From NCBI RefSeq assembly GCF_000317515.1, contig NC_019738.1:5606001-5670000 (forward strand): DNA of 64,000 nt. Direction: 5' to 3'. This stretch comes from Allocoleopsis franciscana PCC 7113 (lineage in GTDB: Bacteria > Cyanobacteriota > Cyanobacteriia > Cyanobacteriales > Coleofasciculaceae). Made by a program: the position numbers and the translations under genes. This document shows, piece after piece, positions 11,687-30,064 of the stretch. Below the pieces are notes generated by a model. The model searched no databases. It had not been told where the DNA came from and saw only the letters and a list, made by a program, of their open reading frames with translations. Each line of letters opens with the position of its first letter. Within the stretch, counting starts at the first letter, position 1.

Positions 11687-11760
11687 GGACGCATAGCTCA
11701 GTTGGTTAGAGCACTACGTTGACATCGTAGGGGTCACTGGTTCGAGTCCAGTTGTGTCCA
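11687..11760 (+). tRNA. tRNA-Val (anticodon GAC)
   Basis: A full cloverleaf is visible. The acceptor GGACGCA pairs with TGTGTCC with one G-U. The D-arm is GCTC/GAGC, the anticodon stem CTACG/CGTAG carries loop TTGACAT (anticodon GAC, valine), and the T-arm ACTGG/CCAGT carries loop TTCGAGT. The discriminator is A, and no CCA is encoded. Its last 17 acceptor/T-arm bases are the target matched by the transposon's homing spacer. Confidence 0.97.
11740..11759 (+). other. Attachment target: GTT PAM plus 17-nt protospacer in tRNA-Val
   Basis: Bases 11740-11742 read GTT, fitting the GTN PAM known for Cas12k. Bases 11743-11759 (CGAGTCCAGTTGTGTCC) equal the element's homing spacer, 17/17. The transposon begins at 11805, leaving 62 bp between PAM and insertion. 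ShCAST-type elements insert about 60-66 bp past the PAM. Confidence 0.92.
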
Positions 11761-11804
11761 TTTACGTAATCATGCTGAAATTGATGATTGGTAAGGGTTT
11801 CAAG

Positions 11805-11870
11805 TGTCGATTGCCAAATTATTTGTCGTCGTTGTCAAATTAGTGTCATTTTGACAAATTGTTTGTCATC
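11805..11870 (+). repeat. CAST end, CRISPR side (terminal inverted repeat and TnsB-site motifs)
   Basis: The first 26 bases starting TGTCGATTGCCAAATTATTT are identical to the inverted opposite end. Further internal copies of the TTGTCAAATTA / TGACAAATT motif follow at about 11832-11848 and 11850-11868. This is the multi-site layout expected for TnsB binding at V-K ends. Confidence 0.9.
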
Positions 11871-11905
11871 GAGCTATAGCTTTTAAAGCAGCTATCTATA
11901 TATAG

Positions 11906-11936
11906 GGACACAACTGGACTCGCTTTCAACCCACCC
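11906..11936 (-). ncRNA. Delocalised homing crRNA: truncated repeat plus 17-nt tRNA-Val spacer
   Basis: On the minus strand, 11936-11923 reads GGGTGGGTTGAAAG, the 3' end of a V-K repeat. It is followed at once by a 17-base spacer (11922-11906) identical to the tRNA-Val 3' end. Shortened repeats with about 17-nt spacers against tRNA genes are the known chromosomal homing guides of V-K CASTs. Downstream bases (CTATATATAG...) do not match the tRNA, so the match ends at base 17. Confidence 0.9.
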
Positions 11937-12005
11937 TTTTCTAGAAATAGTTTTCGGCTTCTACGCTTTTTTCAACCCACCCCTAGGTGGGATGGTCGTT
12001 GAAAC
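11937..12005 (-). CRISPR. Minimal CRISPR array: one full 37-nt repeat and one 32-nt spacer
   Basis: The minus strand of 12005-11969 is a 37-nt repeat beginning GTTTCAACGACCATCCCACC and ending GGGTGGGTTGAAAA, closely resembling the ShCAST direct repeat as I recall it. A 32-nt spacer (11968-11937) follows, and then the truncated homing repeat. No second full repeat is present, so the array is reduced to one ordinary spacer plus the homing unit. The target of the ordinary spacer cannot be read from this window. Confidence 0.85.
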
Positions 12006-12149
12006 TCTTCCCACCTAGACCCTTGTCTACACTGCCCTTTCAGAAGCCTTTTTGACGGCTCCCGAAAATCCTTACTCAATCTCCTGGAAAACTAGAAGAT
12101 TGCTGGTTGCTGAAATTAGTGAAACCCAGATTAGACAAAGGTTTTGAAC

Positions 12150-27300: not shown

Positions 27301-28133
27301 TTGTACTCCTCTGCAACCTCTTTCAACATCGCTTGATCAATCTTGTTCAACTTCTTCTCCAACGCCCGAATTGCCGCCTCACGCAGAATCATATCCATCA
27401 AACCGATATAGCCCCCCGTTGCCTCCCCCAAAGTTTTCAGCATCGTCTTCTTTCCCAAATTTGATGCTACGGGCAACTTCAATACATCCCGCTCCCAAAT
27501 CTCTACTGTTTGCTTAAACTCCGGCCCAGATAACTTACCAAAGCGGTGACAAGCCCGAAAGCGGTTGTAAACTTGCTCATCCCGCTTAATTACAGCATCC
27601 AAACGGTCAGTTCCCACCAACACTACCGAAATGCCTAAGTTGTCAAAAATGTCACGCACATCCGCAAACGTTTTCGGCTTCAAACGGTCAGCTTCATCGA
27701 TAATCAACATCTCCACCTGACACCCCTTGAGAACCTGTAACGTCCGAGTGCGAATCTCTGCCACCGTCCCCTTGACCATCTTGTATTTCAGATGCTCGAT
27801 AATTACCCCAAACAGTTCCCTAGCACCGCAATCCTGAGACGGTTGAACATAGACCACAGGCACAATTGGCGGCTTTCCTACTTCCTGCTTTGGCTTATGC
27901 CTTAACCTGTAAGCATCACAAGCCATCGTCTTTCCCGTCCGCGATTCCCCAACCACTCGACAGCATTGCCGCGATCGCCGCTTTCCCTCCAGCCAATCAT
28001 GGAGCTTGCGAACTTGCTCCAACATCACAATATTGCTGCCCCTGAGACGTTGAATTTCAGCTTCTAATCCATCCTGTTGAGGCTGAATCGCACCTAAGTG
28101 TGTAGCAACATCTTGCGCTTCTGTTTTACTCAT
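27297..28133 (-). CDS. tnsC: TnsC, AAA+ ATPase of the CAST
   Basis: TnsC forms ATP-dependent filaments on DNA that link target selection to the TnsB transposase. Walker A is GESRTGKT (residues 62-69 from this start) and Walker B is MLIIDEADRL (about 142-151). A sensor region follows in SVVLVGTDRL. The length of 278 residues matches V-K TnsC (ShTnsC 276). I prefer the ATG at 28133, three bases past the tnsB stop. A GTG at 28142 would add three residues and overlap tnsB by 7 bases. Confidence 0.95.
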   Translation of the reverse strand: MSKTEAQDVATHLGAIQPQQDGLEAEIQRLRGSNIVMLEQVRKLHDWLEGKRRSRQCCRVVGESRTGKTMACDAYRLRHKPKQEVGKPPIVPVVYVQPSQDCGARELFGVIIEHLKYKMVKGTVAEIRTRTLQVLKGCQVEMLIIDEADRLKPKTFADVRDIFDNLGISVVLVGTDRLDAVIKRDEQVYNRFRACHRFGKLSGPEFKQTVEIWERDVLKLPVASNLGKKTMLKTLGEATGGYIGLMDMILREAAIRALEKKLNKIDQAMLKEVAEEYK

Positions 28134-28135
28134 CC

Positions 28136-29800
28136 TTACCACCCGTAATCATCGCGTAACTCGTCATAGTTCAGAACCTCAACTCGCTCCACCTCAAGCG
28201 TTGCTGACACAGGTTCAACGTCCTCTGCTTCTAGCTCAATAGGTTGAGATTGCTTCGTTACCGAATACAAATCAGCCTGTTCGGCTTTCTGACGTTCCTT
28301 TTTGGTTTTCTTTTGAGCTACAAAAATGTCGCGATCGCGCACTTCCTCCAAAATGGTGCGGTTGCTAATTGTCTTGCCCTTCTCCCGAATCTTCTTACTA
28401 GCGTCTTTAGCCTCCTCTAGAGATAGTTGCTCAGTCTCCAAACCCTCAGCATGAGCCTTAGCCAAAAACACTTCTCGGTCATGCTCTCGTCGATATACCA
28501 AAATTGTTGTGATGTCTCTGGGGTCATAGCGCAACACCACCCGCTCTCCGGCATAACCCGCCAAGCATTCACCTTGATACATCAGATTCTCAAAACGGAT
28601 GTACCCGTCTCGGTAAATTGAGCGGTTCGTTTGCTTCATCAAACAAATATCCAACTCGCGATCGTTCATCAAATTTGGTACAGCCAGTAACCCAGCCTCC
28701 CACCGTTGAAAGCGAGTCTGCTCACCCATGCGAGCATCAATTCTCTGGTTATAGTTATCTACGATGTAGCGCACGAGCAACTGCTCTAAATCCCGTAGTG
28801 TCAAACGAGCATCCTTTTGGGCATCCTCTGGACGCTTCTGCACATTTGACCCAACATACCCAGGCAGCATTGAAAATAACTCCGTGTTGAATGTGCCAAA
28901 CGGACGCTCAACTACACCCCCTTCGGAAGGGCGATCGCGCAACATACAGGTAAACCCCAACTCAACCCCAATCTGCCTCAGATGATTGGAGCGAAAATCC
29001 TTGCCCCCATCGGTATAAAAGTATTCCGGCTTCCCATAAGTTCCCCAAGCACAATGGAGCTTGTATTCATTGCTGTACTGCTTCGGCAATATGGCGTGAC
29101 GCAATGCTAAAGCCACCACATCAGAACTCGGTGCATCAAAGCCCAAACGTATCCCCATGATGCAGCGAGAGTAAGTATCGATTACCGTCGTCAACCAAGG
29201 ACGACCAATAACGTCCCCATCCTTATCCACTAGCAACACATCGACCAGGGTATGGTCGCACTGCCAAAGGTGGTTGCTATACTCCACTGAGATATCTTCC
29301 CCAGTACGAGTTTTGACCGAGAGCATTGAACCCCGCCAGCCCGGAGAGCGCACGCTCTTTTTTTGCTCTTGAGCATCAATAATCGGTTGCAGGACTCGAT
29401 ACACCGTTCTGAAATTGGGATACTTATCTTCTCCTAACTCCGCAGCCCTGGCTTGAACTCTAAGAGCAACTTGCTTGCGTGTCATCCGCTTACTGCCCTT
29501 ATTGCCCTCTCTGTAGGTCTTGATAATAAAGTCCTGCCACTCTTGAGAGATTCGATGTTGACCTTTGTCAGCCCTATCGCTGGGAGCTAGACCAGCTAAA
29601 CCTTCCTGCTCCCACTGCTTTACCAACCGCTGTACTGTCCTGACTGACTTCCCCAGCTTCTTGGCAGCGTCCTTGAGTCTTTGCCCATAAGTGGTGCGAT
29701 CGCATGGTTCAAGCAAACTCTCGATAATTTCCTGCTTGAGTTTTGCCTCATCCGAAAGCTCGGTCACAATTTCATGGGCATTGCTTTTGTCTTGCTCCAT
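28136..29800 (-). CDS. tnsB: TnsB, DDE transposase of the CAST
   Basis: TnsB binds the transposon ends and joins their 3' ends to target DNA. The 554-residue protein has N-terminal helix-turn-helix domains (GKSVRTVQRLVKQWEQEG) and an RNase H-fold core. The catalytic triad is D182 (WQCDHT), D264 (FYTDGGKDF) and E298 (GVVERPFGT). Its spacing of 82 and 34 equals that of ShTnsB. A Mu-type C-terminal domain follows, with the TnsC-contacting tail at the end. There is no TnsA in the element, in line with V-K systems, which form cointegrates. The operator-like motif begins 13 bases upstream of the ATG. Confidence 0.96.
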   Translation of the reverse strand: MEQDKSNAHEIVTELSDEAKLKQEIIESLLEPCDRTTYGQRLKDAAKKLGKSVRTVQRLVKQWEQEGLAGLAPSDRADKGQHRISQEWQDFIIKTYREGNKGSKRMTRKQVALRVQARAAELGEDKYPNFRTVYRVLQPIIDAQEQKKSVRSPGWRGSMLSVKTRTGEDISVEYSNHLWQCDHTLVDVLLVDKDGDVIGRPWLTTVIDTYSRCIMGIRLGFDAPSSDVVALALRHAILPKQYSNEYKLHCAWGTYGKPEYFYTDGGKDFRSNHLRQIGVELGFTCMLRDRPSEGGVVERPFGTFNTELFSMLPGYVGSNVQKRPEDAQKDARLTLRDLEQLLVRYIVDNYNQRIDARMGEQTRFQRWEAGLLAVPNLMNDRELDICLMKQTNRSIYRDGYIRFENLMYQGECLAGYAGERVVLRYDPRDITTILVYRREHDREVFLAKAHAEGLETEQLSLEEAKDASKKIREKGKTISNRTILEEVRDRDIFVAQKKTKKERQKAEQADLYSVTKQSQPIELEAEDVEPVSATLEVERVEVLNYDELRDDYGW

Positions 29801-29812
29801 TTTTAATATATA

Positions 29813-29840
29813 TGTTCAATAAAAACATATGTGTATAATA
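29813..29840. promoter_or_regulatory. Likely CvkR operator / promoter of tnsB
   Basis: This 28-bp motif (core CAATAAAAACATATGTGTA) differs at only three positions from the one before cas12k and has the same orientation and distance to its gene. On the minus strand it starts TATTATAC, a candidate -10. The palindrome ACATATGT in its middle fits a dimeric MerR-type protein. Confidence 0.75.
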
Positions 29841-29847
29841 CTAAAAA

Positions 29848-30064
29848 TGACAGATAATTTGACAAACTTATAAAAAAGTTTGATTCAAAAATCCGACAAA
29901 TAATTTGGCAAATATCTGAGATGAGACACTTAATTTGTCAATGAGGTGTTCAACAGATTTAGGCAGACTAAAAAGCCTATAATCTGTATCTAGAAACGAT
30001 TACACGCTCTTGATGTATCGCGACAATTATTTTGACAAGACGACAAATAATTTGGCAATCGACA
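29848..30064 (-). repeat. CAST end, tnsB side, with multiple TnsB-site motifs
   Basis: The outermost 26 bases (30064 inward) are the exact inverse of the other end. Related TGACAAATTA-like motifs recur at 30021-30038, 29923-29942, 29893-29913 and 29848-29866. The more spread-out motif array is typical of the tnsB-side end. A TATAATCTGTAT-like stretch lies near 29978-29989. Confidence 0.88.

Follow-up and report, generated by a model that had tools for sequence, protein, structure and literature searches.

A 64,000-nucleotide window of the genome of the cyanobacterium Allocoleopsis franciscana PCC 7113 (NC_019738.1, positions 5,606,001 to 5,670,000; coordinates below are window positions unless a contig is named) contains what is, judging by its sequence, a well-preserved type V-K CRISPR (clustered regularly interspaced short palindromic repeat)-associated transposon (CAST), a member of an already known class that homes to a tRNA-Val gene. 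We are highly confident in the full reading, in which this V-K CAST, here called CAST1, carries an antiphage cassette inside a frame that is exchanged with other CASTs of the lineage. The initial annotation had described a complete V-K CAST at tRNA-Val, and every part that it named was located, with profile matches and full-length matches to the proteins of the Scytonema hofmannii CAST (ShCAST, Tn7747). It had given the span as 11687 to 30064, which takes in the tRNA-Val gene lying outside the element; the element proper runs from 11805 to 30064.

The homing geometry is read next to the left end of the element. Along the minus strand, the trans-activating CRISPR RNA (tracrRNA) region is followed by two repeat-spacer pairs: a full 37-nt repeat with its 34-nt spacer, then a repeat truncated to 12 nt with the 17-nt spacer. 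The tracrRNA region lies downstream of cas12k, with a conserved core on the cas12k side and an anti-repeat (CTAGGTGGGA) on the repeat side. The homing 17-mer has one other perfect copy (17/17) in the genome of about 7.97 Mb (a chromosome of 7,470,429 bp and eight smaller contigs), and this copy is within the tRNA-Val gene, beside a GGTT protospacer-adjacent motif (PAM). From the PAM to the left end there are 62 bp. The same spacing measured in eleven other V-K elements having a recognizable guide was 52 to 66 bp, and 59 to 66 bp in 10 of the 11. Natural V-K elements have been described with a truncated repeat, a 17-nt anchor spacer, a GTN PAM, and a spacing of 46 to 82 nt (PMC9938897). The guide match, the 62-bp geometry, and the agreement with this published layout therefore give good support to the left boundary and to the reading of the 17-mer as a homing guide. 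The CRISPR/homing unit of the initial annotation is present, its array amounting to one full repeat and one 34-nt spacer, to which the homing spacer and its truncated repeat are added. No target of the regular 34-nt spacer was found in phages, in plasmids, or elsewhere in the genome.

The protein core points the same way. Cas12k, TnsB, TnsC, and TniQ each match the solved ShCAST counterpart from end to end. In a Cas12k tree of 51 rows, the window protein and ShCas12k belong to one clade (support 100/96), the main Cas12k clade, and the row nearest to the window protein is 69% identical to it; the comparison with known V-K proteins and the tree, both proposed with the initial annotation, thus bore out its assignment. 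Counted from the right end, the genes follow the V-K order of tnsB, tnsC, and a small tniQ, and no TnsA-like open reading frame was seen among those of the element. All machinery genes are open, full length, and without internal stops, and the D182/D264/E298 triad that had been ascribed to TnsB was located in the window protein. Every sequence feature that we examined as defining the V-K family was found in the element, and the copy is predicted to be active in transposition. Two long, divergent Cas12k relatives of about 730 aa were seen elsewhere (L167, 16276-18468; L171, 7685-9847). They sit on a very long tree branch and adjoin GmrSD genes, CRISPR repeats lie downstream of the one in L167, and the two may form a separate V-K subgroup.

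The longest inverted repeat of the region pairs 11805-11847 with 30022-30064 (43 nt, 84% complementary), and its first 26 nt are identical, in agreement with the likeness of the ends reported earlier. The ends have the form TGT...ACA with repeated motifs resembling TnsB sites, as is usual for V-K elements. In the genome of a sister species (G001), the flanks are found in the same order, the left one 96% identical up to 11790 and the right one 78 to 88% identical from 30137 onward, and about 25 kb of different DNA separates them. This synteny brackets the element independently of the element's own repeats, leaving a margin of about 15 bp at the left boundary and 72 bp at the right one. Those 72 bp, from the right end to the start of the G001 homology (30065-30136), consist partly of a short repeat found elsewhere.

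Several observations weigh against an intact homing transposon. The array holds one regular spacer only, and one cargo gene, encoding a GmrSD-like protein, is truncated at its 5' end. An empty tRNA-Val site, for which the initial annotation had proposed a search, was found in usable form in none of 36 relatives; both flanks are kept in G001 alone, where the site is occupied. There is also no 5-bp target duplication, as TCAAG adjoins the left end and AGTGG the right one, so the window copy may have been rearranged since its insertion; near the right end, the sole shared string is GTTTCAA at 30124, 59 bp beyond the terminus. The unmatched flanks, the broken cargo gene, and the single spacer would suit a decayed or immobile V-K remnant whose ends stem from different insertion events and which is unable to move. 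We consider such a remnant quite unlikely, given the open and full-length machinery genes, the DDE triad, and the 26 identical terminal nucleotides. Moreover, among 15 natural V-K elements whose ends were paired, CAST1 included, 14 lack the duplication and only L078 has one (CTTAA); for several of the 15, the right end was reached through a tnsB of that contig, on the assumption that the two were parts of one element. We keep the V-K assignment because missing duplications are the rule among the elements surveyed. They would fit replicative transposition without TnsA followed by recombination, and the survey suggests that a natural V-K element should not be assumed to have a 5-bp duplication at its flanks. 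A further V-K locus, L113, has a left end of the TGTCGATTGCC type and a right end of the TGTACATTAAC type, which are different end families. Its mixed ends suggest a composite of two elements, as expected if neighboring elements recombine.

Two other Tn7-like elements are present in the same genome. CAST2 (L058, L059, and L124; G000:C1 about 4.005-4.024 Mb) is a second V-K CAST, located at a tRNA-Pro(cgg) gene. It has the same layout as CAST1, including the 62 bp between guide and left end and the same two cassette borders, a 143-bp "box" on the left and a gene called orfX on the right. It differs in its machinery (Cas12k 47% and TnsB 51% identical), in its cargo, and in having no cvkR-like hit. 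CAST3 (L136; G000:C1:6890000-6909000) has tnsB, tnsC, tniQ, orfX, a GmrSD remnant, and the box; no cas12k match was found there. One order, namely, cas12k, GmrSD, box, variable defense genes, orfX, tniQ, tnsC, tnsB, is common to CAST1, CAST2, and an element of the sister species (G001 C27). The defense genes are restriction-modification and Septu-like genes in CAST1; a C5 methylase, HATPase, Z1, PD-(D/E)XK, and AIPR in CAST2; and restriction-modification genes with a Schlafen AlbA protein in G001 C27.

Identities along these elements conflict. Between CAST1 and CAST2, a 697-bp block around orfX is 94% identical, in coding and noncoding parts alike and with abrupt edges, whereas TnsB, Cas12k, and GmrSD are 47 to 51% identical. 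Between CAST3 and G001 C27, TnsB, TnsC, and TniQ are 90 to 94% identical, but orfX is 46% identical, and the CAST3 orfX shares 86% identity with its counterpart in a type I-B2 CAST of G001 described below. The conflicts between orfX and TnsB require recombination; cargo frames therefore recombine between CASTs, possibly also across V-K and I-B2. The simplest mechanism would have co-resident elements cross over within the borders that they share, replacing the cassette and keeping the machinery. A broader proposal, that the CASTs of this lineage share a standard frame (GmrSD-box on one side and orfX on the other) and swap whole defense cassettes between co-resident CASTs, including V-K and I-B2 elements at the same tRNA-Val, seems to us evenly balanced between true and false.

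The two borders are rare sequences. Among the 40 of 63 candidates scored in the genome, the box was found in three copies only, each in a Tn7-like element (the other two 89% and 84% identical to that of CAST1); its identity reaches up to 96% in G001. The box makes up the last 143 bp of an apparently decayed small gene (16700-17264) with a ribbon-helix-helix-like start, as judged by eye. orfX likewise occurs in three copies only in the genome, each beside tniQ. Of 292 genomes sampled throughout the phylum, this one alone yielded it; outside that set, it was detected near tniQ in G001, in Nostoc sp. JL33, and in a further genome (G004, a fragment at the end of a contig). It had no match on plasmids. 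orfX has no Pfam, NCBIfam, or PADLOC match, and the window copy has none in PHROGs; the CAST3 copy has a weak PHROG match of unknown function (E value of 0.0025). An AlphaFold model of orfX from two sequences was poor (predicted local distance difference test score of 56).

As orfX adjoins tniQ in five elements and has invariant residues, the shared box and orfX could reflect purifying selection on CAST accessory genes that were inherited with the chassis, with no exchange at all. This is very unlikely in our judgment: the identity between CAST1 and CAST2 runs at 95 to 98% through the noncoding stretch between orfX and tniQ and then ends suddenly, and the relationships of orfX, GmrSD, and TnsB conflict between elements. 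That differing cassettes all end at box and orfX could also be read as the mark of a separate mobile unit, namely, the defense cassette itself, which would insert into CASTs here with box and orfX as its edges. Against it, neither the CAST1 cassette nor those genes of the CAST2 cargo that were tested included a recognizable recombinase. Box and orfX also bear no relation to each other, and orfX occurs in the I-B2 CAST as well, in which the box was not detected. We regard this explanation as unlikely and prefer the exchange of cassettes within a shared frame.

The type I-B2 CAST of G001, which is PmcCAST-like (L046+L047, G001:C1:351000-378500), uses the same tRNA-Val attachment gene as CAST1. 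In place of Cas12k it has Cas5b/Cas7b/Cas8/Cas6, a TnsAB fusion, and a TnsD-like TniQ; it also encodes TnsC and another TniQ, smaller than the TnsD-like one. It shares cargo genes with CAST1 (GmrSD 76% and orfX 59% identical at the amino acid level), with the cargo frame oriented oppositely relative to the ends. Its flanks likewise show no 5-bp duplication. Type I-B2 elements are known to reach tRNA genes via TnsD (PMC11406308), so between the two sister species the tRNA-Val locus serves two homing routes, one RNA guided (CAST1) and the other probably protein guided (the I-B2 CAST of G001).

Compared with ShCAST, CAST1 has the same gene set, likewise without TnsA, and the same placement of the homing guide on the cas12k side. 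The GTN PAM and the spacing of 60 to 66 bp reported for ShCAST are also similar. Cas12k of the window, however, falls in a different sub-branch, the operator motif, tRNA, and cargo are others, and the ends belong to the TGTCGATTGCC family rather than to the TGTACAGTGAC family of the Sh-like elements surveyed. The CAST of Anabaena PCC 7120 (AnCAST) resembles CAST1 in having a MerR-type CvkR (Alr3614) divergent from cas12k and a promoter block common to cas12k and tnsB, as well as the 12-nt truncated repeat and 17-nt anchor spacer described in PMC9938897. The cvkR-like regulator of the initial annotation indeed matches Alr3614. Within the window, a 27-bp block (TATnnTACACATATGnTTTTATTGAAC) stands before cas12k and again before tnsB, immediately upstream in each case, and nowhere else (0 copies expected). 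The published 15-nt CvkR motif (AnnACATnATGTnnT) of AnCAST is absent from both promoters, which have a TACACATATG-type block instead. A similar block precedes cas12k in relatives with the same regulator type, and the published motif type was seen in two Sh-like elements. We call the regulator CvkR-like because the homology holds but the operator differs, and we infer that regulators of this type form a CvkR subgroup with a distinct operator.

ShCAST and AnCAST work with a naturally cleavage-dead Cas12k, an assembly of TniQ, TnsC, and TnsB, replicative insertion, and CvkR repression. By analogy, Cas12k of CAST1 with the tracrRNA and a short guide (truncated repeat plus 17-nt spacer) would bind, but not cut, the 3' half of tRNA-Val at the GGTT PAM. 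TniQ and a TnsC filament would assemble beside the bound Cas12k, and TnsB would insert the element 62 bp downstream, oriented so that its cas12k end is the one closest to tRNA-Val. Transposition would be replicative because there is no tnsA, and CvkR would repress cas12k and tnsB via the shared operator. The sole regular spacer may serve a second pathway. The defense cassette would be held between the GmrSD/box block and the orfX block. Recombination with further CASTs of this lineage would have exchanged both blocks, changing the cassette and leaving the machinery in place.

The cargo of CAST1 lies on the plus strand between the two halves of the machinery in the order hsdM, hsdS, ptuA, ptuB, hsdR. 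By its profile matches, it is a type I restriction-modification operon enclosing a Septu-like pair. The PtuA ATPase and PtuB HNH proteins fit the PADLOC Septu models, and we call the pair Septu-like because the NCBIfam scores of both are below the cutoff. The GmrSD-like gene adjoins cvkR and is 78% identical at the nucleotide level to the intact gene of the G001 I-B2 CAST; its homology reaches 16594, with upstream in-frame stops. It is probably inactive, because its N-terminal part is gone and in-frame stop codons lie upstream. All features are listed in the table; tRNA genes were called with ARAGORN and Rfam, and protein families were assigned with Pfam, NCBIfam, and PADLOC.

Table. Features of the CAST1 region of A. 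franciscana PCC 7113 (window positions)
Feature	Position	Strand	Basis or remark
tRNA-Val(gac), attachment gene outside the element	11687-11760	+	ARAGORN; Rfam RF00005, 69.6 bits
PAM GGTT (GTN type), 5' of anchor protospacer	11739-11742	+	Sequence
17-nt anchor protospacer inside tRNA-Val gene	11743-11759	+	Exact match to homing spacer
Element (CAST1)	11805-30064		Matching terminal repeats at both ends
Left end, three TnsB-site-like repeats	11805-11868	+	Repeats at about 11811-11828, 11832-11848, 11851-11868; terminal inverted repeat
17-nt homing (anchor) spacer, CGAGTCCAGTTGTGTCC	11906-11922	-	
Truncated repeat R*, 12 nt, GTGGGTTGAAAG	11923-11934	-	Sequence; layout as in PMC9938897 Fig. 1
Sole regular spacer, 34 nt	11935-11968	-	
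CRISPR direct repeat, 37 nt, CRISPR-DR15	11969-12005	-	Rfam RF01329, 49 bits; transcribed strand inferred from layout
tracrRNA region, approximate limits	12010-12430	-	Alignment with 8 other V-K loci
cas12k (635 aa)	12464-14371	-	NCBIfam NF038191, 1011 bits (cutoff 150); ShCas12k, 950 bits
Candidate CvkR operator/promoter of cas12k, TATAATACACATATGGTTTTATTGAAC	14391-14417	-	Two-copy block; similar block before cas12k in relatives
cvkR-like MerR-family regulator (143 aa)	14439-14870	+	MerR_1; Alr3614/CvkR (7xn2), E 1.6e-37
GmrSD-like (DUF262) gene, N terminus lost	14894-16561	-	PF03235, profile positions 53-198 only
Box, 143 bp, left cassette border, encodes tail of small protein	17130-17272	+	
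hsdM (type I methyltransferase)	17440-19581	+	Pfam N6_Mtase/HsdM_N; PADLOC
hsdS (specificity subunit)	19578-20966	+	Pfam, NCBIfam, PADLOC
ptuA-like ATPase (Septu)	20969-22234	+	PADLOC PtuA, 425 bits
ptuB-like HNH protein (Septu)	22235-22954	+	PADLOC PtuB, 186 bits
hsdR (type I restriction subunit)	22951-25998	+	TIGR00348, 207 bits, below cutoff; PADLOC REase_I
orfX block, right cassette border	26056-26752		697 bp, 94.4% identical to CAST2 block
orfX (139 aa), adjoins tniQ	26108-26527	-	
tniQ (168 aa)	26794-27300	-	PF06527; ShTniQ, 279 bits
tnsC (281 aa)	27297-28142	-	TniB/AAA; ShTnsC, 410 bits
tnsB (554 aa)	28136-29800	-	DDE D182/D264/E298; ShTnsB, 860 bits
Candidate CvkR operator/promoter of tnsB	29814-29840	-	Two-copy block
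Right end, five TnsB-site-like repeats, terminus 30064	29848-30064	+	Terminal inverted repeat

CAST1 adds a complete and readable V-K CAST for work on RNA-guided insertion, from a Cas12k branch apart from that of ShCAST. What is new here is the evidence that antiphage cargo lies within a frame of gene and DNA blocks exchanged among RNA-guided transposons of this genome and its sister genome. Common cassette borders around different defense genes are seen in all three Tn7-like elements of this genome and in several of the sister species, so that exchange by homologous recombination becomes directly testable.

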